From a virus: a stretch of 47,564 nucleotides of DNA. Each line of letters starts with the position of its first letter. Position 1 is the first letter of the stretch. Shown here piece after piece: positions 12,359 through 31,034 of the stretch. A program made the translations under genes and the position numbers. The notes below the pieces were generated by a model. The model did not search any database and was not told the DNA's origin. It saw nothing but the letters and a program-made list of their open reading frames with translations. The stretch lies in IMG/VR virus record IMGVR_UViG_3300024520_000117, positions 1 through 47,564 of that record; one strand, written 5' to 3'.

Positions 12359-12445
12359 TGTTTAATTTATTCAAAACAAGAGATGTATGCCGAACTCTTG
12401 AAGCGACTCCCTGACATCAATGTTAAATTGAACGGCAAGGTTTGA
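12358..12445 (+). pseudogene. Possible frameshifted small gene
   Basis: ATG at 12358 (TAATG) gives only 18 codons before TGA. The +1 frame, entered near TTCAAAACAAG, reads SKQEMYAELLKRLPDINVKLNGKV to a stop at 12443-12445, which overlaps the next start (TGATG). The coding-like second frame and the two neat junctions suggest one small gene broken by an indel in the A-run. An independent start at 12383 is also possible. Confidence 0.3.
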
Positions 12446-12711
12446 TGGCTGCGCCTATCCCTGGTGGCATTTTTGGAGGCTTGATTGGTGGTGGCAGTAG
12501 CACTGCCAGTGGTTTCGCTCAAGGCTTATCAGGAACGCAGGCACAAGCGCAACAGCAAGATCAAGGGTTGAGTGGGCAATTAAATTCTTTCATAGACCGC
12601 GAATATGAAAACATATAGGCAAGACAAGACGGATACGAAGCCCCACCCGCCTCTATCCGCGAAATATTGCAACTTTCTGTCGATGAATGGCTGAACGGAG
12701 TGTTTGAGTGA
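12445..12711 (+). pseudogene. Glycine-rich small protein gene interrupted by in-frame TAG
   Basis: The first part encodes 57 residues with a glycine-zipper-like start (GGIFGGLIGGGSS) and a Gln/Gly-rich middle, ending DREYENI at TAG (12616-12618). The same frame continues with coding character (ARQDGYEAPPASIREILQLSVDEWLNGVFE) to a TGA at 12709-12711, which overlaps the next gene's GTG start (GTGA). The junction suggests that 12711 is the original end. It is either a nonsense allele or amber readthrough. The whole product would have 88 residues. Confidence 0.5.
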
Positions 12712-18431: not shown

Positions 18432-18661
18432 GTCAGTGGAACAAATATGGTCTTGTTAAAACGCAAATTGAATATAACCTTGAAAAAGAAATCAAGAAAC
18501 TCAGGGATGCGCTAGAGGTTTATGCTAGAAAGGATAATTACAAAGAGTGTTGGGATTGGGCGCAAGGGATCGGACAAATAAAGATTGAACCAATGACGGC
18601 AAAAGATAGGGGCAAACGAGCAAGAGAAGCATTGAAGGAGACTGATGATGGGAGAGATTAA
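18428..18661 (+). CDS. Hypothetical 77-aa protein
   Basis: A helical, basic protein with a Trp pair (CWDWAQGIGQI) and a C-terminal RGKRAREALKE. Starts in an ATGA overlap and ends within the next gene. No family recognised. Confidence 0.55.
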   Translation: MSQWNKYGLVKTQIEYNLEKEIKKLRDALEVYARKDNYKECWDWAQGIGQIKIEPMTAKDRGKRAREALKETDDGRD

Positions 18662-19034
18662 ATTCAGGGCTTGGGATGGCGATACAATGGAATATGGTGT
18701 TGAAATCTCTACCGAAGGTAAAGCCAAGGTTATGTGGGATGGTGACTACATGGATGATTACGAGTTACCGCCAATGCAATACACAGGACTCAAAGATAAG
18801 AACGGTAAAGAGATATATGAGGGTGATATTGTCTTATTTGGCGACAACCCAATACATGAAAATACTCATGGAGAAGTAATTTGGAGTAGCGGTAGAGTGG
18901 GTTTTATTTATAAGTTTTTAGATGGAGAGCATAAAGATAAATGCACCGATATGGTTGATACGTGGCGCACCTATGAAGTCATCGGAAACATATATGAGAA
19001 CCCTGAGTTATTGGAGACTGATGATGATAAGTGA
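18648..19034 (+). CDS. YopX-family protein
   Basis: ATG at 18648 or 18645 after GAAGGAG. The YopX signature is plain: IKFRAWDGDTM, PPMQYTGLKDKNGKEIYEGDIV and a C-terminal YEVIGNIYENPEL. YopX-family proteins occur in phages of many hosts and have no known function. Confidence 0.85.
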   Translation: MGEIKFRAWDGDTMEYGVEISTEGKAKVMWDGDYMDDYELPPMQYTGLKDKNGKEIYEGDIVLFGDNPIHENTHGEVIWSSGRVGFIYKFLDGEHKDKCTDMVDTWRTYEVIGNIYENPELLETDDDK

Positions 19035-19083
19035 TAGTTTCTACTGCCCCTATTGCCAGAGAGATATTGAAGGAGAAGGATGA
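19024..19083 (+). CDS. Tiny CPYC peptide (19 aa)
   Basis: MISDSFYCPYCQRDIEGEG: one CPYC pair like half a zinc finger. It overlaps the end of the YopX gene and shares a base with the next start (TGATG). The overlaps favour translation, but the product is very short. Confidence 0.35.
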   Translation: MISDSFYCPYCQRDIEGEG

Positions 19084-19274
19084 TGGGTGATGTAGGCGAT
19101 ACGTTCAACGCTATGAAAGCGCACATGAAGAAGAAGAAAGCACGACTTGGCATCTCTTGCCCTGATTGCACTATTAAATTACCAAAGGCGCAACCGAAAA
19201 TATTACTACCTAACCAAAGATGTTGGTGCGGGTATCGTGACCCACGACAACGGGAGAATGATGATGTTAAGTGA
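19083..19274 (+). CDS. Conserved phage Zn-binding small protein (63 aa)
   Basis: The segment SCPDCTIKLPKAQPKILLPNQRCWCGYRDPR is typical of a short phage family in which CPDC and CWC form a metal-binding site. AAGGAGAAGG precedes the ATG. Function unknown. Confidence 0.65.
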   Translation: MGDVGDTFNAMKAHMKKKKARLGISCPDCTIKLPKAQPKILLPNQRCWCGYRDPRQRENDDVK

Positions 19275-19332
19275 TGAGCGTACTAAAGATGTGCTGGCAT
19301 ATTTAGCTAAACAATTACGAGATAAACAGTGA
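19264..19332 (+). CDS. Tiny helical peptide (22 aa)
   Basis: ATG at 19264 with CGGGAG seven bases upstream; product MLSDERTKDVLAYLAKQLRDKQ. It overlaps both neighbours (GTGA at its end). Possible gene. Confidence 0.35.
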   Translation: MLSDERTKDVLAYLAKQLRDKQ

Positions 19333-19496
19333 TCACACTAAAAGAGAAAAATTGTTTGTGCCACACTTGCAATAAAGAGTTTCATTATCTAGGCATAGCT
19401 CGCCATAGGTCAATGCACCGAGACAGGAAAGAAAACTGTATTATAACTTATACTTATGGCAATACACGGGAATATAGATACGGAGATAAACAGTGA
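19329..19496 (+). CDS. C2H2 zinc-finger phage protein (55 aa, GTG start)
   Basis: A GTG start in a GTGA overlap opens a frame with CHTCNKEFHYLGIARHRSMH: Cys-x2-Cys-x11-His-x3-His, the classical zinc-finger spacing, followed by the basic RDRKENC. Small single-finger proteins of this look occur in other phages of proteobacteria. Likely a DNA- or protein-binding accessory factor. Confidence 0.6.
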   Translation: MITLKEKNCLCHTCNKEFHYLGIARHRSMHRDRKENCIITYTYGNTREYRYGDKQ

Positions 19497-19514
19497 TTAA
19501 TTGGGAGAGGGTTT

Positions 19515-19769
19515 ATGAGTGATAGACACGAATTAGCTGATGAATGTAGAGAATCTTACAGCAACCTTAAACAACAACTCAAAGAGGCTAATGCCTTGTT
19601 GGATGAATTGGAACATATTTACTCTTTACCAGAATTGTTTTTTGAATGGTGTATGGAAGGGAATGACCCAAGAAAATATAAATATACAATGACTCAAGAA
19701 CCTACTAAGGAAGATATGGAGTGGGCAGAGAAAGAAGTAATGGAAATACAGAACAAGAATAAACCATGA
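19515..19769 (+). CDS. Hypothetical acidic coiled-coil protein (84 aa)
   Basis: GGGAGAGGGTTT precedes the ATG. The N-terminal half is a coiled coil (YSNLKQQLKEANALLDELEHIYSLPEL) and the second half acidic with WAEKEVMEIQNKNK. Unknown function. ATGA overlap with the next gene. Confidence 0.55.
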   Translation: MSDRHELADECRESYSNLKQQLKEANALLDELEHIYSLPELFFEWCMEGNDPRKYKYTMTQEPTKEDMEWAEKEVMEIQNKNKP

Positions 19770-19927
19770 GTGAAAATACTTTTTATCATTGCTTGGTTTC
19801 ATTTACTACTGATGGCAGAAAATATGTTACTGAATTTGATGGCAATAGCACAGCCCCAATTCGGAACACAGTTTATGATGCGGACGGTAAAAAGATTATG
19901 CAATATCCTGAGAGGAATAAACCATGA
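19766..19927 (+). CDS. Hypothetical 53-aa protein
   Basis: A 53-residue beta-rich protein (YHCLVSFTTDGRKYVTEFDG) joined by ATGA overlaps to the gene before and to the methyltransferase after. No family recognised. Confidence 0.5.
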   Translation: MSENTFYHCLVSFTTDGRKYVTEFDGNSTAPIRNTVYDADGKKIMQYPERNKP

Positions 19928-20586
19928 GAAAGGAAACTATCCATAAGCTAAATTTATATCATGGCGATTGCATGGAATATATGAAGTCCTGTAAAGACAA
20001 TGAATTTGATTTAGCGATTGTTGATCCGCCTTACTTCCCTGCCTTTGGTAAAGGTAATTTCGTTAAAGGCGTGTCAACAAAAGGGATAACTGGAAGACAT
20101 AAAGAGAGTAAGCATTGGGATATTCCTTCCTAGGAATACTATGAGCTATTAAAAAGCAAGTCTAAAAATCAAATTATATGGGGGATTAACTATTTTGATT
20201 TCAGTGGTGCTCAAGGTGGCAATATAGTTTGGGATAAGAAAGCTGATGGCGTTCCGTTTAGCGAAGCAGAGATAGCATACAGTTCTTTTCATACAAAAAC
20301 AGTCATGTATAGACAGCTTTGGATGGGGTGTATGGTTGAGGGAGGGAAAAGGTCTGGGATTCATCCTTGCGAAAAGCCCGTAAAACTCTATGAATGGCTA
20401 TTAACCAACTATGCTGAACCTAATCAAAAAATCCTAGACACTCATTTAGGATCAGGATCAAGCGCAATAGCAGCACATTACTTTGGATGTGACTTTATAG
20501 GAATAGAAATAGACGAGGATTATTTCAATGCTTCACTTGAACGCATAAATGAACAAACAAAGCAGATGGACTTATTAGGAGGATAA
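19924..20586 (+). pseudogene. DNA methyltransferase (DPPY class) interrupted by one in-frame TAG
   Basis: The open frame covers residues 1-69 (YHGDCMEYM near 14, catalytic VDPPYF near 36-40), stops at TAG (20131-20133) and resumes in the same frame, without another break, for 150 residues: EYYELLKSKSKNQIIWGINYFD, HPCEKPVKLYEWLL and the S-adenosylmethionine pocket LDTHLGSGSSAIAA. In complete relatives the part around the stop reads as IP-x-EYF-x-EL, so only one residue is replaced. Catalytic and cofactor motifs lie on opposite sides, so the 69-residue product cannot work alone. It is a recent nonsense allele, a suppressed amber, or programmed readthrough. Order DPPY then cofactor motif is that of beta-class enzymes. 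Confidence 0.8.
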
Positions 20587-20589
20587 ACC

Positions 20590-20769
20590 ATGAGTGACAT
20601 AGAACTTAAACCTTGCCCGTTTTGTAAATGTAAAAAAATAGAATTATGGCCTATGATTAATGGTTGGTTTGCTCCTGTGTGTACTAAGTGTGGAGCGAAT
20701 ATTAATGAAAATTATTCAACAGGGGCAAACACGAAGAAACAAATAAAAGCATGGAACACAAGAGCATGA
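20590..20769 (+). CDS. Lar-like restriction-alleviation family protein, copy 2
   Basis: A 59-residue protein with ELKPCPFCK near the N-terminus, VCTKCG in the centre and KAWNTRA at the end. It is a second, diverged copy of the family member at 10523-10708. It follows the interrupted methyltransferase by 3 bp; a Lar-type protein beside a methylase fits an anti-restriction island. ATGA overlap downstream. Confidence 0.7.
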   Translation: MSDIELKPCPFCKCKKIELWPMINGWFAPVCTKCGANINENYSTGANTKKQIKAWNTRA

Positions 20770-21191
20770 GCGACATAAATAAACGAATCGCTGTTGAGGT
20801 TATGGGGTGGAGGCTAGTTGATTATACAGAACAAGGGCTTAAATACCATTCTGACTCAAAATGGGTTGAGAATGACCCGCCTATTGATGGTGATGGGTAC
20901 ATTCAATATCGTGGGGGTAGGCGAATGTCTGAGTTCGACTTCAAACCCGACACCGACATTGCTGATGCTTTCTTGGTTGTTGAGCGCATCAACGAATTAC
21001 ACTCTGATTGGAGATTTTGCTTACTAGGTGGCGATACAACGGACAGTGGTTTCTTTGGTTGGAAAGCAGAATGGTTTGGTTGTTTTGATGCTAAGAAAAA
21101 TTGCGGAGATAGACACGCTCAAGCATTTGCAGACACCGCGCCTATGGCAATATGTAAAGCTGCATTGAAAGTAATGGAGGGGAGTGAATGA
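20766..21191 (+). CDS. Phage ABA-sandwich-domain-like protein (141 aa)
   Basis: Starts at 20766 (ATGA overlap). DFKPDTDIADAFLVVERI in the centre and the ending FADTAPMAICKAALKVME follow the pattern of the phage ABA sandwich domain (PSTDIAxAxxV...TAPxAICxAALK). Frequent in phage early regions; function unknown. Confidence 0.7.
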   Translation: MSDINKRIAVEVMGWRLVDYTEQGLKYHSDSKWVENDPPIDGDGYIQYRGGRRMSEFDFKPDTDIADAFLVVERINELHSDWRFCLLGGDTTDSGFFGWKAEWFGCFDAKKNCGDRHAQAFADTAPMAICKAALKVMEGSE

Positions 21192-21316
21192 TTGAATTAC
21201 GCATATTAGTTAGAAAAGATTTACCGCCAGAAGATAATGAAGTCTTACAGTATCGAAAGCTATCTTGGTGGGGCAAATGGACAAGATGGAAAAACGTGGA
21301 GAAGGTTTATGAATGA
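21188..21316 (+). CDS. MIELR-type small protein, copy 2 (42 aa)
   Basis: A 42-residue protein starting MIELRILVRK and containing DNEVLQYRKLSWWGKW. It is related to the product at 12197-12358. Overlaps both neighbours (ATGA before, 8 bp after). Confidence 0.5.
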   Translation: MIELRILVRKDLPPEDNEVLQYRKLSWWGKWTRWKNVEKVYE

Positions 21317-21605
21317 CACACTTGAACGAGTCACAAGGGCTATACAGGGAGTAAGCACTGATATTGGGGCGCAAACTTATGATGATGCTTCAAAAGAATT
21401 TAAGCAATTTATGAAGGAGAAAGCCCAAGCAGCAATAGACGAACTAGAAGCGTGTGGTTATGTGAAGATTGATGATTTAATTGAGAAGGCTGACTCAGAA
21501 GATAATGGAATGGGTTGCCCTGATTGTGGGCAGAATCATTCAGCAATAGCAAGGGAATGGCTCAAGGAACAGAAGCCTGCACTTCCCGAGCGCGAGGGAT
21601 CATAG
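21309..21605 (+). CDS. Hypothetical 98-aa protein with CPDCGQNH motif
   Basis: Start at 21309 overlaps the previous stop. The C-terminal half has GCPDCGQNHSAIAREWL, a possible half zinc site. It is the last rightward gene and its TAG stop overlaps the end of the converging internal-virion gene by 6 bp, so no separate terminator fits between the two units. Confidence 0.55.
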   Translation: MNDTLERVTRAIQGVSTDIGAQTYDDASKEFKQFMKEKAQAAIDELEACGYVKIDDLIEKADSEDNGMGCPDCGQNHSAIAREWLKEQKPALPEREGS

Positions 21606-23795
21606 ATTTGAAACGGTTTGTTGCAGGTCGGCAGGGAGATCTCGGCTGGTCTGTTTTTCACTTGGGAAAAGCTGATTACCTACTTCTTCTGCATCTTCAA
21701 TTAATTGCTTTCCAACTTCAGCACTGAATTCTCCAAGGGTTGTCAGGTTTGCAATACCGGCACGCGCAATTCTTAGAAACGCGGCTCGTTTAACAACCAT
21801 ACTCGCCTCTTCAGATATAACCTTACCAAAAGCTCTGGCAGAAACCGGATTTGAAACAACATCGACAAGTAATTTAGAGCCGCCAAGAAATAAAAGGCCG
21901 CCTAATAAAGCACCAGCCCCGCCGCCAGCCGCCCCGCCACTGCCAGCGAGTGCCAGAAATGGCACCATACCACGCACGACCCCCTTTGCCCCGCCGATAC
22001 CAGCACGCCTGGCAATGAAGGTACTCCAGTTCGGTATAGGGGTATCGGCAATACTGATGGCTGCTTCAACCAATGAGTCAATAGCTTTTTCATCCATGCC
22101 GGTTTTTTTAAACAAGAAGCCAAGCGCATCTGCCCTTGTAGTATCCGCACCGATCTTACCTAAATTTTTAGCAAGTTTATCTGCATCCAGTTTAATCGCA
22201 CCGTTAGCGAGTTCTCTCATTGAGTCCTCAAATATGTTTGCAAGGACTCTCCCGCCTATTTCCTGAAATGTTTTGGGGCTAATAAGCCTGGATAACTCTT
22301 CCATCGCTTGTGGGCTGTCTATATCAATAACAATATTAGCAAGTTTATCCACTGTCATCCGTGTCGCTTCCTTGGAGGGGGCGACTGTTCCTCTTAACCC
22401 TGTTTTACGAACACTGCCAAATTTATTACCTGTCGCAGTTTCAAATAAGAAATTCATTGTCTCGGCATAATCAGCATCTATCGTTGCCAGACGTTCACCG
22501 ATTTCTTGTGCCCCCTCACCAATTCCGTTCTTTAAGATGTCTGATTTGACCCCCGCTTTTAATGGAGCCATCAGCCTTGCAAAAGCTGCTTTAGTGCCTT
22601 TCTCTGCTGTCCCTACCTGTTGATCGATTTTCAATAATAATTCATCCATCTGGGCAAGGGATTGGTCGGTTAGATTAAGAACATTCTCTTCAATAAAATT
22701 AATCATGCCTTCAGTTGCTTTTGCCGCCTCGATAGATTCTTTTGTTTCTACCTTCGCAGTTTCTTTCCCAATAAAATCAGTGGGAACCTCTGCTACTTTC
22801 TTTTTCGCTGGTCTGCGTTTTTTTAATTCAAGCAGTATCTCGTTGGCAACCTGTCTTGTATTTTCAGGATTGTAAGATACTTTAAGCCTGTTAGCCTCAA
22901 GGAATAATTCACCATACCTGTCTTCAAATTTAGCCCCGACTGTTTTAACGAGGGTTCTGGACTGGTCAAATATCTTGGTGCCTAATTTAGCTGTTGACAT
23001 CAGCGGGACGAGTCGGGACGGGAGTTCATCTTTCATTTTTTTAAGTGCTTCTTCAGACGCAATGCCGACATCCCTTGCCCTGCTGCCAATAATCGGGAAA
23101 CGTCCAAGTACATTCACTATCCCTTTCCCGAGTTGTCTTTTCCCGAGTTGGAATGGGGCAAGTTTAACGCCTTGTTCTGCTGCTGCTTCAGCAATGTCTT
23201 CTTCAGCCTTGCCTATTCCTGTGGCTAGTCTGCCAGTTGTCCTGCCTGTTATTCTTATTGCCCCTGCCGTGCCGCCTGTTGCAATTTCAAGTAATGCTTC
23301 ACCAGAGGCAATACGCCTTAACTCTTCATCGGACAGTCCTGTTTCTTCCCTTGCTCCTTCAGGCAAGATGCCCAGAAATTCCAGTCCTTCCAGTGTTGCT
23401 TCGGGGGCTACTGCACCTGCCACTACTCCAGTTAAACCCCCTGCCGCTGCCCCGGTGATCGGGTTTATAAGCGGATTTACCGGGGGCACCCTTAACCCAG
23501 CCTGCATCCCTGCCAATCCCCCCATGATAATCGTGCCTAATCTTTCCAGTTCAAGCGGGTCTTCTTCAATATCCGTACCCATAGCACGCTGGATAACACG
23601 TTTTACAATGCCGGGAGTTTCCTGTTGTTCCGGTAGTGGTAAGCCGGTAGGACCGGATCGGGCAGCAGAGATAACAGGCGTTGATCCTTTTATTTCATCG
23701 TCCGTTGCCCTACGCACACTGGGGGTTTCATCCACTTCAACTGGGATCGAACCTTCCAGTTCTTCCTCTGTTGGTTTTCTTAATATTACAGCCAT
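21600..23795 (-). CDS. Large internal virion / DNA-ejection protein candidate (731 aa)
   Basis: A 731-residue protein, last gene of the late operon. It has a disordered acidic start, Gly/Ala-rich hydrophobic patches (about 95-125 and again near 615-640, GGAAGGGAGALLGGLLFLGG) and long charged helical parts between. Such Gly/Ala membrane-active patches are typical of podovirus ejection proteins that form a channel during DNA entry. No lytic transglycosylase motif is visible. Function inferred from position and composition. It follows the 587-residue gene with a one-base overlap (TAATG). Confidence 0.5.
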   Translation of the reverse strand: MAVILRKPTEEELEGSIPVEVDETPSVRRATDDEIKGSTPVISAARSGPTGLPLPEQQETPGIVKRVIQRAMGTDIEEDPLELERLGTIIMGGLAGMQAGLRVPPVNPLINPITGAAAGGLTGVVAGAVAPEATLEGLEFLGILPEGAREETGLSDEELRRIASGEALLEIATGGTAGAIRITGRTTGRLATGIGKAEEDIAEAAAEQGVKLAPFQLGKRQLGKGIVNVLGRFPIIGSRARDVGIASEEALKKMKDELPSRLVPLMSTAKLGTKIFDQSRTLVKTVGAKFEDRYGELFLEANRLKVSYNPENTRQVANEILLELKKRRPAKKKVAEVPTDFIGKETAKVETKESIEAAKATEGMINFIEENVLNLTDQSLAQMDELLLKIDQQVGTAEKGTKAAFARLMAPLKAGVKSDILKNGIGEGAQEIGERLATIDADYAETMNFLFETATGNKFGSVRKTGLRGTVAPSKEATRMTVDKLANIVIDIDSPQAMEELSRLISPKTFQEIGGRVLANIFEDSMRELANGAIKLDADKLAKNLGKIGADTTRADALGFLFKKTGMDEKAIDSLVEAAISIADTPIPNWSTFIARRAGIGGAKGVVRGMVPFLALAGSGGAAGGGAGALLGGLLFLGGSKLLVDVVSNPVSARAFGKVISEEASMVVKRAAFLRIARAGIANLTTLGEFSAEVGKQLIEDAEEVGNQLFPSEKQTSRDLPADLQQTVSNL

Positions 23796-25558
23796 TATTC
23801 TACAATAAATTGTTCGCCATCAGGCGCAGTAAATATTTTTTTACCATCTTTGGTATTGGCGGTATGTTTAGCCCCTTCGGGGAGTCCTTCAGGCAATTCT
23901 TCTGCTGGCGTTTTCCGTCTGATCTGATCCTCAAATTGTTTTTTCAGCTTCTTGAATTTTGCCGCATCGTTGCTAAGTCTTCGCTTGGTAACGGCATTAG
24001 CTTCGGCTGTTGTTTTTGTGTCGCCAGCAGCAATCCCCACATCTCTTGCGATTTGCGCTGCGGCTAATCCTGCGGCAATGGCACTGATATTGGCGTCTTC
24101 ACTGACACCTATGTTTGCGACAGCATCCTCTGCGATTCGTACCTCTTCCTTATTAAGATTGCCTTTGAAATTAACAAATAAATCAATGGTAATCTGGCGA
24201 GACAGACGATTAAAATCTTCTTTCTTTGAAAGATCGCCCACATTTTTAATCCCGATGGAATTAGCTGACTTGTCTATATCAATACCTAGGTCAGCAGCGA
24301 ATCCTTGTAACGAGGTTATCAATGGCTGCAAGCTACCTGTCTGTACTACCCCTTCAGTGTCAGGCGCAGCAGCGATTTCGGTGAGTAAATCTGCCATCTG
24401 TTCTAGGTTCTGTGTCGCAGTGACAGCCGCATCACCTCTGTCGATAAAATCAACCATTTTTTCTCCAGCCCCTTTACCTCTTGCTTTCTGGAATTCAGTT
24501 TCAACTTCAGATGCGCCGACCTGTATCGTTGTAGTCGCCGCACCGAAGCGACCTTCAACTGATGCTGAAGATGTCCCATCATCATTCTCAGTAAATTCAA
24601 CCCTTGCGTTCTCCCCGGCAGGGATGCCCAGTTTTTTGCCTAAAATTGAATCACCGCTTACAACCTTGGATCTTTTCTTCACTTTTGGTTCTTGTTTTAA
24701 CTGTTCCTGTGTCTTCAACCCGAACGCCCCAGCTATCTCTGGCTGGCGTTGCAACGCCTTCAATGCCAGTGCGTCAAGAGGTTCAGGTAGTCTTGAATTG
24801 ACAGCAAAGATATCATCAACCGTTTCCATCCTGATAGTATTGTCTTGTGCAAACTGGATTATATCAGGGATTCTTTTGGCGAGTTCCCCTCTTTTTTTAA
24901 TGTCATTCGATTTCCAGAAAGCCTCATGGTTATCAGTATTTTCTACTAATGTTTTAAAAAATTCATCATCCCCTTTTGCCGCGAGAGCGAACCCAGGATA
25001 TATTTCTCGCAACGCTGCGGTGTCTGCTGCTGCTTCAGGGTTGTTTAGTAACTCGTTTAAATCAATCGTGATCCCCGGCAACGTGGCTTCAAGGTTTTTC
25101 CCCATAGAAGCCAGAGCAGCAGCCTTTTGGTCTGAGCCTAATTCAGATTTAACAATATCTACCCCTTTCAGAAGGGTTGATGTATAGGCATCTGTTCGCT
25201 CTATCTGATTTTTAGTCCTGAGTATTTCTTCTTCTCTTGCTTGTTTTTCAAGTTCAATGGATGGTAGATCATCCCCACGAAACCCAGCAGAGAAAGTAGT
25301 GAGTATTAACCCAATAGCCCCCAGTGGGTCGTCCTTGAACGTGGGTATCCCGCCTCTGCCTCCTCTGCCGCGTCTTCTCCCCTGCCCTGAGATGCCGCCC
25401 GGTTCAAGCAATTCTTCTTCTGCGGTAGGGATACGTTCTGGCTGTTGTTCTACCAGTGTCCTCGCCGTATCGACATCTGTGCCGCCAGCACCGCCCAACT
25501 GTTGTTGACTGATAAGATCCTGTATACCAGTTGCAACTCCGAGTCCTACGTTAGCCAT
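23795..25558 (-). CDS. Internal virion / ejection protein candidate (587 aa)
   Basis: ATG at 25558, which overlaps the upstream stop by 8 bp and has GGAGGTAA at a suitable distance; ATG at 25564 is also possible. The N-terminal 100 residues are Gln/Glu/Gly-rich and include a basic RRRGRGGRGG stretch; the rest is helical and charged. It is the middle gene of three that probably form the inner ejection complex. No recognised domain. Confidence 0.5.
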   Translation of the reverse strand: MANVGLGVATGIQDLISQQQLGGAGGTDVDTARTLVEQQPERIPTAEEELLEPGGISGQGRRRGRGGRGGIPTFKDDPLGAIGLILTTFSAGFRGDDLPSIELEKQAREEEILRTKNQIERTDAYTSTLLKGVDIVKSELGSDQKAAALASMGKNLEATLPGITIDLNELLNNPEAAADTAALREIYPGFALAAKGDDEFFKTLVENTDNHEAFWKSNDIKKRGELAKRIPDIIQFAQDNTIRMETVDDIFAVNSRLPEPLDALALKALQRQPEIAGAFGLKTQEQLKQEPKVKKRSKVVSGDSILGKKLGIPAGENARVEFTENDDGTSSASVEGRFGAATTTIQVGASEVETEFQKARGKGAGEKMVDFIDRGDAAVTATQNLEQMADLLTEIAAAPDTEGVVQTGSLQPLITSLQGFAADLGIDIDKSANSIGIKNVGDLSKKEDFNRLSRQITIDLFVNFKGNLNKEEVRIAEDAVANIGVSEDANISAIAAGLAAAQIARDVGIAAGDTKTTAEANAVTKRRLSNDAAKFKKLKKQFEDQIRRKTPAEELPEGLPEGAKHTANTKDGKKIFTAPDGEQFIVE

Positions 25559-26675
25559 GATCATTTACCTCCGCCATGCCCTTAACCGCACTGAGCATCA
25601 CGCCCATGACATCGATCAGGTTCAGTGTGTAGCCATCACCGACACCAAAGGCGTTTTTAAATTCCTCTGCCATCGGACCGATATGTTTAATCTTGTCGCC
25701 GGTGTAATGCCATGTGTAGATCGGCAGATTGATAATCTGTTTCAGTATCTTCTGTGTATTGATCTCATGGATGTTTTCTTTCAGGCTGCTGTGGGAGAAT
25801 AATCCGGCTACCGCGCCTGCTCCGGCAATAATATCAGCGATGTTTGCATCTTCATTTGTACTAGTAGTCGTGTCGCCAGCGTTAATTCTACTATTTAGCA
25901 GGTCTGCCCCAAGCGCCCCAGGATTAACGCCAACACCAGTAGCAAGGCCAAGCCCCAAGCCACCAGTCTGATTTATAAGTAGAATACGGTTTAAAAATGC
26001 CTGTTGTTCCAGTTTACTCTGGAACTGTCCGGCACTACTGGATAGATTGGCGAGGAACTGGCCTCTGGCTGAAGTTAATTGCCCCTGTGCCAATGGGAAA
26101 TTCAGTTTGGCTTGCGCCGCCTTCGCAGATAATCCTCTGGTCAGTTGCCCACGCTGGCGTATGGACTCTTCGCCAACGCCTTCCAGACGGTTCAATGTCG
26201 GGGTATCTGTGGGTCGCAGTCCTGCGCCGGGGGAAATTTCCTGTGTGATCTGTTCAAGTACGCGCTGGGTATCAACATCAATATCACTGATGCCAATCTC
26301 ACGTTGTTTACCAAACAGTTCATCTATAAAAGCCGCAGTTTCGGGGTCTACCCTGCCGCCACGTTTGATTGCTTCCAGTTCAATCTTTGCAATCTCTTCT
26401 TGTAATGGCAGCAGTCGCTCTGCCTGCAATAATTGTGCCTTTTCAAGTCGATCTCTGATCCCTTGGAATTGCGTTGTATTAATAATCTTCTGGTTTAGCG
26501 AATCAAATAATCCCCCTTGAAATTCGCCCTGTGTTGTAAGCTGAGACAGCACAAAATCAGTGAGTTCTATTTGTTTATTGATTAAGGTTTTTTCTTCTTC
26601 CGATAGCCCCTTAGCAGCCCCAGATGCCACCGTAGTTTCAGAGCCACCACCAAAGAAGCCTTTTAGAAAGCTCAT
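25551..26675 (-). CDS. Virion protein with C-terminal S74 intramolecular chaperone-like domain
   Basis: A 374-residue protein. The N-terminal 290 residues are helical with coiled-coil stretches; the last about 80 match the peptidase S74 domain: SLKENIHEIN, LPIYTWHYTGD and HIGPMAEEFKNAFG. In tail spikes this domain trimerises the protein and is then cut off after a Ser-Lys dyad (Ser and Lys of SSLK are present). Its place beside ejection proteins, with no beta-rich receptor domain, is unusual. It may be an internal or tail-tip protein. Confidence 0.7.
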   Translation of the reverse strand: MSFLKGFFGGGSETTVASGAAKGLSEEEKTLINKQIELTDFVLSQLTTQGEFQGGLFDSLNQKIINTTQFQGIRDRLEKAQLLQAERLLPLQEEIAKIELEAIKRGGRVDPETAAFIDELFGKQREIGISDIDVDTQRVLEQITQEISPGAGLRPTDTPTLNRLEGVGEESIRQRGQLTRGLSAKAAQAKLNFPLAQGQLTSARGQFLANLSSSAGQFQSKLEQQAFLNRILLINQTGGLGLGLATGVGVNPGALGADLLNSRINAGDTTTSTNEDANIADIIAGAGAVAGLFSHSSLKENIHEINTQKILKQIINLPIYTWHYTGDKIKHIGPMAEEFKNAFGVGDGYTLNLIDVMGVMLSAVKGMAEVNDHG

Positions 26676-29057: not shown

Positions 29058-29434
29058 TAGTTCACCGTCACCGAGAGTTGATGTTCTTCGCCATAGAGCG
29101 TGAACGTGACAGCATTGCCTGTGCCTGTTCGCACCGCTATATTCCCCGAGGTATTATTCAGCCACAAGTTCGCAGGTTCCCACTCTACTGATTGGTCTGC
29201 GGCTAACGAAATATCATAGAATAACGCAGTTGTCTGATCATACGTTGTCCCGTTGACATCATGGAAAACCCTGTATGTCGCCGCACTACCACTGGTATTG
29301 CAAATAGACATACTATTTACCTTCGTCTTGGTATTGCTCGGCAGCGTGTAGATGCTGACCGCCGTGGTATTGGCGGGTCGTGACTGTCCAAGCTGTAATG
29401 AGGGGGTCGGATCGAGTATGACTTCATCAGTCAT
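29057..29434 (-). CDS. Putative virion protein, jelly-roll-like (125 aa)
   Basis: Start at 29434 overlaps the upstream stop (ATGACTGA); the ATG at 29461 is too deep in the upstream gene. The product is a small beta domain: STKTKVNSMSICNTSGSAATYRVF-type strands with WEPANLWLNNTSGNIAVRTG. Such short proteins in podovirus tails bind the nozzle or fibre. Role inferred. Confidence 0.5.
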   Translation of the reverse strand: MTDEVILDPTPSLQLGQSRPANTTAVSIYTLPSNTKTKVNSMSICNTSGSAATYRVFHDVNGTTYDQTTALFYDISLAADQSVEWEPANLWLNNTSGNIAVRTGTGNAVTFTLYGEEHQLSVTVN

Positions 29435-31034
29435 TTTCTGTGCTCCAGCTTCCACCTTCAATAGCAGTGCTTATCGAATGGATTTCGACATCTTCAAAAT
29501 TAACTGCGTTTTTTGCCTCGTATTGTATGCTTTTGAATTCCCCGCCTTCTTCCAGAGAGGCAAATCGATCATTCAATGATGCGCCACCTAATACTGATGT
29601 GCCGAGAGTGAACTGATCCGTGGTGGCGGTGCCGAGGACATCAGTTCCCCCTTGCGATATATTTTGTGTCTGTTGTGTGCCATTGTCCCTGACCCAGCCA
29701 AAGATTATATCGCCGTCATTCTTGGGGGCTATGGCGAGCGCAGCAATAGAGATGGTCTTCTCCATAATGCTCGTTCCATAATTCAGGAACGGGAGGGTCA
29801 TCTTGTAAGAGATTGAAGTTATGCCATCAATGCTGCGGTCTGCCTGTATGAGTTTTCTGACATGCCCATCGGTGCCGCCAGAGAAAATAATCGCCCTGTT
29901 GTTGCTGCCGGGGTCAATGCCACGCATCAACGAGATGGCAGTATACGCAGGCCACTCAGCCCAGCGTACATTTTTGAACCTGTAGTCCATCATCAGGATC
30001 GTGTTGTTTGAAGATGAACTGTCCTTTGCTAGTGTGAATAAGACATAGCCGCCATCATCATAATTGTCTGCCCAGGCAAACTTGAGTTTTGAGAAATTAA
30101 TATGCTCTCGTATCCACCCCTGTATCGGACGAGATAATGCAGCCTCGTTATAATCACCAAAGGCGGCTGTCGCATTCAGGCTACGGATAGTGCCATCAGA
30201 CCAGATAAAGCCGACATCGCCCTGTTGCCCCCCGCCGAAATGAAAAATACTGTTATGGCCGACAGCCCCAACTCCCTTGATAAACGGGATACGCAGGAAA
30301 CTGTCGGGGCCGGTGGGGGCAGAACCTGTAATGCGCGTGATAGACCCCTTGTATGGTCCTTTAAATACCCAGAGGTCATTCTTGTGTGAGACGAGTGCTG
30401 TGATCCTGTCACCATCATCCGGGCTAATATCAATATGCCCCGAACCTGTACCTGTCCAGTCAGCCGCATTCAGGTAGGTTGCGTAATAGAGTCTTGAAGG
30501 CACGGCAACATTGCCTGCTGCCCAGAGCCGGTTCTTATGCTCCGTGGAAAATGCAAAATTCGGTGGGGAACCTGCCAGGTTCTGTGCAGTAGACCCATCC
30601 CATGACTTCGGTACATCAGCAGACGAATCGCTTGACATGATGATGAGATCGTTGAGCATGGAATAAGACGGTATCTTGCCTGCCTCCAGCCCTGTAAACA
30701 GATTTGTGAATGAACCATCGCCATCATCTTTCATAATGACAGTCCCGACATGGACGATGCGATGCTGTGCCGATGTGCCACTCGTACCACTCAGCCAAGC
30801 ATCAAAGATCCCCATGATGTCAGCCCCTGAACCCAATGCTGATGAGGTCAGTTTCGATGTGCCGGGAGATTTACGTGTGCCGCCATCCAATAAATAAACA
30901 AGGTTTTCTGCATTAACCAGAAACGGAACGGATACCTGACCTTCCTTAACCTGAACTGCATCGGCTGTGGGACCGAAATCACTGCTCCAGCCGCCCCCTA
31001 TTAGATGCTTGATCCACTGTGATTTCTCCGTCAT
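29427..31034 (-). CDS. Tail hub / nozzle-like protein (beta-propeller type, 535 aa)
   Basis: A 535-residue protein built from repeated Trp/Asp/Gly-rich strands: IFDAWLSGTSG, SYSMLNDLIIMSS, NRLWAAGNV, DLWVFKGPYKGSI, VGFIWSDGTIRSL. The pattern suggests a propeller, like P22 gp10 or T7 gp12 that closes the tail end. It follows the adaptor gene by 5 bp, the usual order in podoviruses. The assignment rests on pattern and place. Confidence 0.6.
   Translation of the reverse strand: MTEKSQWIKHLIGGGWSSDFGPTADAVQVKEGQVSVPFLVNAENLVYLLDGGTRKSPGTSKLTSSALGSGADIMGIFDAWLSGTSGTSAQHRIVHVGTVIMKDDGDGSFTNLFTGLEAGKIPSYSMLNDLIIMSSDSSADVPKSWDGSTAQNLAGSPPNFAFSTEHKNRLWAAGNVAVPSRLYYATYLNAADWTGTGSGHIDISPDDGDRITALVSHKNDLWVFKGPYKGSITRITGSAPTGPDSFLRIPFIKGVGAVGHNSIFHFGGGQQGDVGFIWSDGTIRSLNATAAFGDYNEAALSRPIQGWIREHINFSKLKFAWADNYDDGGYVLFTLAKDSSSSNNTILMMDYRFKNVRWAEWPAYTAISLMRGIDPGSNNRAIIFSGGTDGHVRKLIQADRSIDGITSISYKMTLPFLNYGTSIMEKTISIAALAIAPKNDGDIIFGWVRDNGTQQTQNISQGGTDVLGTATTDQFTLGTSVLGGASLNDRFASLEEGGEFKSIQYEAKNAVNFEDVEIHSISTAIEGGSWSTEND

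Follow-up and report, generated by a model that had tools for sequence, protein, structure and literature searches.

Related Systems

Phage orphan methyltransferases of the phrog_67/PF01555 family are known both intact and broken. In the Bacteroides LoVEphage (OY725593, OY731444) a methyltransferase of this family carries a frameshift at a run of nine C's, located at positions 895-903 of one locus (L224) and 295-303 of the other (L227). The gene is intact in BI-TP1 (PQ571265, L228), in which the C9 tract is absent and which is 95% identical to LoVEphage across the gene. The frameshift in LoVEphage set against the intact copy in BI-TP1 indicates that loss of the methyltransferase has occurred independently elsewhere. 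The C9 tract within the LoVEphage gene could be phase-variable. TAG codons inside genes are a feature of amber-recoded phages, which include some crAss-like and other gut phages. In-frame stop polymorphisms, which are short-lived, have already been described in prokaryotic and mobilome genes (Belinky et al., 2021, PMC7918605).

Here we describe a methyltransferase gene interrupted by a single amber codon at positions 19924-20586 (plus strand) of an IMG/VR virus record (IMGVR_UViG_3300024520_000117). All 47,564 nucleotides of this record were analysed and are referred to as the window. The gene resembles the phrog_67/PF01555 phage orphan methyltransferases in sequence family, in motif order (IV then I), and in predicted fold. 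It differs from these relatives in its TAG at codon 70 and in the unusual residues L75, S78, and K79 after the stop. Like the LoVEphage copy, it belongs to this family, and in both the break falls in the linker that joins DPPY to the IIWG strand. The LoVEphage break is a frameshift at a homopolymeric tract with an intact near relative, whereas the break here is a stop codon. As in the polymorphisms of Belinky et al. (2021, PMC7918605), the TAG sits in an otherwise intact frame of a mobile-element gene and CAG is its likely source, but in contrast to those cases only one sequence carries the stop.

The Interrupted Methyltransferase Gene

The features of the gene are as follows.

19924-20130, plus strand: first 69 codons, encoding the N-terminal part of a beta-class-like N6/N4 DNA methyltransferase, with DPPY (motif IV) at residues 34-37
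20131-20133, plus strand: in-frame TAG at family column 70, which is sense and highly variable in 165 homologues
20134-20586, plus strand: C-terminal 150 codons and TAA, with KNQIIWGINYF, IHPxxKP (here IHPCEKP), and the SAM-binding motif DTHLGSGSS
20140-20160, plus strand: residues 73-79 (YELLKSK), just past the stop, of which L75, S78, and K79 are unseen in the 165 homologues

Translation gives 69 codons, the TAG, 150 codons, and a terminal TAA. The TAG, in the context TTCCTAGGAA, is the sole interruption; there are no other stops and no frameshifts. Reading through it yields a continuous product of 220 residues, as the first-pass annotation had proposed, with DPPY on one side of the stop and DTHLGSGSS on the other, also as proposed. 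Each half is recognizable on its own. The N-terminal half matches phrog_67 at E 4e-11 (profile positions 118-160) and the C-terminal half at E 2e-29 (profile positions 267-353). The read-through protein matches far better than either half (E 6.5e-43, profile positions 118-352), and it matches Pfam PF01555 (N6_N4_Mtase) at E 2.6e-15. Because the two halves are collinear in phrog_67, the interrupted frame is not a product of chance. Codon bias is equal on either side of the TAG (0.183 and 0.186 per codon). The profile match is significant across the catalytic domain; the DPPY and SAM-binding motifs do not stand in one uninterrupted protein. Since the TAG falls between these motifs and relatives are uninterrupted there, we read 19924-20586 from its sequence as a broken copy of a phrog_67/PF01555 gene, whose working enzyme is putative only.

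In the predicted model of the read-through protein (pLDDT 75, pTM 0.76), residues 38-65 form a disordered loop, residue 70 opens the helix that comes after it, and the SAM-binding motif is located further downstream. The best PDB matches to the predicted fold are M.BceJIV (8urk) and CcrM (6pbd), with E-values of about 2e-11.

Homologues and Conservation

We scanned IMG/VR together with one genome per GTDB species and recovered 173 loci, representing 165 distinct homologues, some in phage contigs and others in bacterial genomes. The best of these, on a contig of Nitrosomonas sp. Nm132 and in an equally long IMG/VR record, are 53-54% identical. We did not find any relative above 60% identity. 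A BLASTN of the gene and of the region 19000-21600 against phages gave no close DNA relative, and a degenerate pattern around the stop had no match in IMG/VR.

The stop had been said to occupy a place that is ordinary coding in relatives. The homologues bear this out: column 70 is a sense codon in all of them and TAG in none (0/165). Eighteen kinds of residue occur there (K in 42, Q in 21, E in 19, A in 17, P in 16, and others), and the column ranks 24th of 209 in variability. The relatives are single chains that keep the downstream domain, not pairs of separate proteins. Interior stops are otherwise confined to one of the 165 homologues. This copy, in a Bacteroides MAG, is interrupted once, by an interior TAA close to its C-terminus (L161:3604-3606) and away from column 70, and is probably another null allele. 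Broken copies in the family exist but are rare.

The sequence is well conserved on both sides of the stop. At columns conserved in at least 80% of homologues, it matches the family at 17 of 17 before the TAG and at 44 of 51 after it; 36 of 39 strongly conserved columns are kept in the 150 downstream codons. Four of the seven departures after the TAG are clustered at residues 73-79, including S78, where each of the 166 other sequences has R. We considered S78 as proof of decay and dropped it, as the distant named phages Pan3 and 16-3 also lack the R-V. Because these more distant phages lack it, the departures at residues 73-79 count only weakly for relaxed selection or decay and are at most a hint of it.

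Gene Neighborhood and Phage Context

The gene lies between two small frames.

19766-19927, plus strand: preceding small ORF, whose TGA overlaps the ATG of the methyltransferase (4-base ATGA)
20590-20769, plus strand: neighboring Lar-type restriction alleviation protein (PF14354, E 1.1e-7)

Phages usually couple the translation of adjacent genes by overlapping stop and start in this way, as ATGA. The methyltransferase and its Lar neighbor are consistent with an anti-restriction gene pair. The early region around them also contains a YopX-like gene (18645-19034) and a Phage_ABA_S domain gene (20751-21191). A full-length methyltransferase was absent from 16 portal-related and 10 RecT-related virus records, many of which are fragments, and one short weak match was found among them. 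Since none of these records, fragments included, has a full-length copy, the methyltransferase looks like an accessory, dispensable gene.

Collections contain little that resembles this phage. Its portal protein has relatives of about 50% identity in short uncultured contigs and had no match in eight candidate host genomes. The SbcC-like and exonuclease genes have no relatives in IMG/VR. Among its late genes, three long ones (731, 589, and 535 aa; 21600-25564 and 29427-31034, minus strand) have no PHROGs match at E 0.001.

Origin of the Stop Codon

The locus is best explained by a nonsense allele of recent origin in an accessory, dispensable phage methyltransferase, an explanation to which we assign a probability of roughly 0.74. 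This was among the three options raised in the first-pass annotation, and it fits everything tested. The stop codon is there, the halves that flank it are both intact, and relatives have an intact gene. One nonsense substitution, at codon 70, would have abolished the function of an accessory, anti-restriction-type methyltransferase in an uncultured tailed phage. Translation would then stop at the TAG and leave a 69-residue peptide that has DPPY but not the SAM-binding half and should be inactive, so that no active enzyme would be made. Because the remainder of the gene is intact, the mutation appears to be young, and the null allele is probably polymorphic and revertible by one substitution. 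The stop most likely arose by a single transition from CAG, a change that would have converted a Dcm-type site, CCAGG, into the CTAGG seen here. CCAGG sites of the Dcm type are classical amber hot spots in E. coli lacI. The tetranucleotide CTAG is strongly depleted across the window (38 found, 111 expected). The downstream 150 codons, with no frameshift and most strongly conserved columns retained, would also fit an expressed enzyme.

Next in order, and unlikely, is an assembly or sequencing error, in which case the true genome would have a sense codon and encode an ordinary enzyme. The record is a single stand-alone virus sequence, the rest of the frame is intact, and the stop occurs in no relative. 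The three unusual residues within nine codons past the TAG are also what a local error patch might give, but the stretch that contains them retains its frame and length. Moreover, substitution errors seldom put a stop into any particular gene, and we saw no other clearly broken conserved gene in the window.

Suppression of amber codons by the host or its population, with full-length enzyme made and any inserted residue tolerated, is less probable again. The protein could tolerate it, because column 70 accepts almost any residue, and both sets of motifs are intact. TAG is however an ordinary terminator in this phage. About 10% of the called ORFs in the window end with it, among them recT and the portal gene, and the relatives of the portal gene stop at the corresponding position. 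Among conserved genes, we saw an in-frame TAG in the methyltransferase alone; the other long conserved genes in the window have none. A tRNA search of the 47.5 kb window, a record that may be incomplete, found no tRNA and so no suppressor tRNA (CUA). The locus therefore shares with amber-recoded phages a TAG inside a gene, and differs from them in its normal use of TAG as a terminator, in the single gene affected, and in the lack of a suppressor tRNA within the window. The suggestion of host suppression in the first-pass annotation is left unsupported by these results.

We regard programmed readthrough, in which the TAG would set the level of the enzyme, as very improbable. The frame past the TAG is open and conserved, but the stop itself is conserved in 0 of 165 homologues and this is a single case. 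Over the 120 nt that begin at the stop, folding is no stronger than in shuffled sequences (z −0.63), which gives no sign of a stimulatory structure. The same results speak against the earlier proposal that readthrough regulates the enzyme. A similarly slight chance is given to a host-conditional modification switch, with the amber kept so that the enzyme, and protection from restriction, would arise only in amber-suppressing hosts. Terminator use, the tRNA search, folding, and non-conservation of the stop argue against recoding and programmed readthrough, and an ordinary loss-of-function allele is most likely, ahead of a new decoding trick.

The least probable reading, that the two parts are translated separately as subunits and come together as an enzyme like natural split methyltransferases, has in-frame ATGs at 20305 and 20332 in its favor, but no Shine-Dalgarno sequence precedes 20305, all relatives are single-chain, and residues 71-127 would be in neither product. 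The ATG at 20305 is the first in-frame ATG, GTG, or TTG past the TAG, 57 codons downstream, and restarting there would drop several invariant columns and the KNQIIWGxNYF and WDK strands. Because the first ATG is so placed, has no ribosome-binding site, and would lose conserved structure, the catalytic half (DPPY) and the cofactor half (DTHLGSGSS) cannot function apart. Rhizobium phage 16-3 was considered as an example of a split enzyme and rejected; it has two adjacent methyltransferase genes, the second of which covers query residues 1-217.

The Second Amber Codon

The first-pass annotation reported a second amber of the same kind.

12445-12711, plus strand: 57-codon ORF, TAG at 12616-12618, then 30 open codons whose coding status is unproven

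The TAG at 12616-12618 is real, but the parallel with the methyltransferase did not hold. The 30 open codons are closed by a TGA, which overlaps the GTG at 12708 with which the exonuclease begins; homologues that align from residue 1 back this start. A search of the tail among phages gave no match, its coding bias is weak, and 30 codons in a row without a stop should often arise by chance. No counterpart of this candidate is present upstream of related exonucleases. Amber decoding should not be argued from it. The surrounding segment (12360-12711) is a cluster of short frames that look shifted relative to one another, with a switch near 12383 and a tandem CAAGACAAGAC near 12619-12630. They may represent either very small genes or a stretch that has decayed.

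Significance

Our reading of the methyltransferase locus is an ordinary one. As it stands, the locus cleanly exemplifies a loss-of-function allele of an orphan methyltransferase in a phage, and its significance would rise only if the stop were maintained by selection or read through. Set beside LoVEphage and BI-TP1, it suggests that losing a gene of this sort costs a phage little, and that such genes may switch repeatedly between on and off within phage populations.
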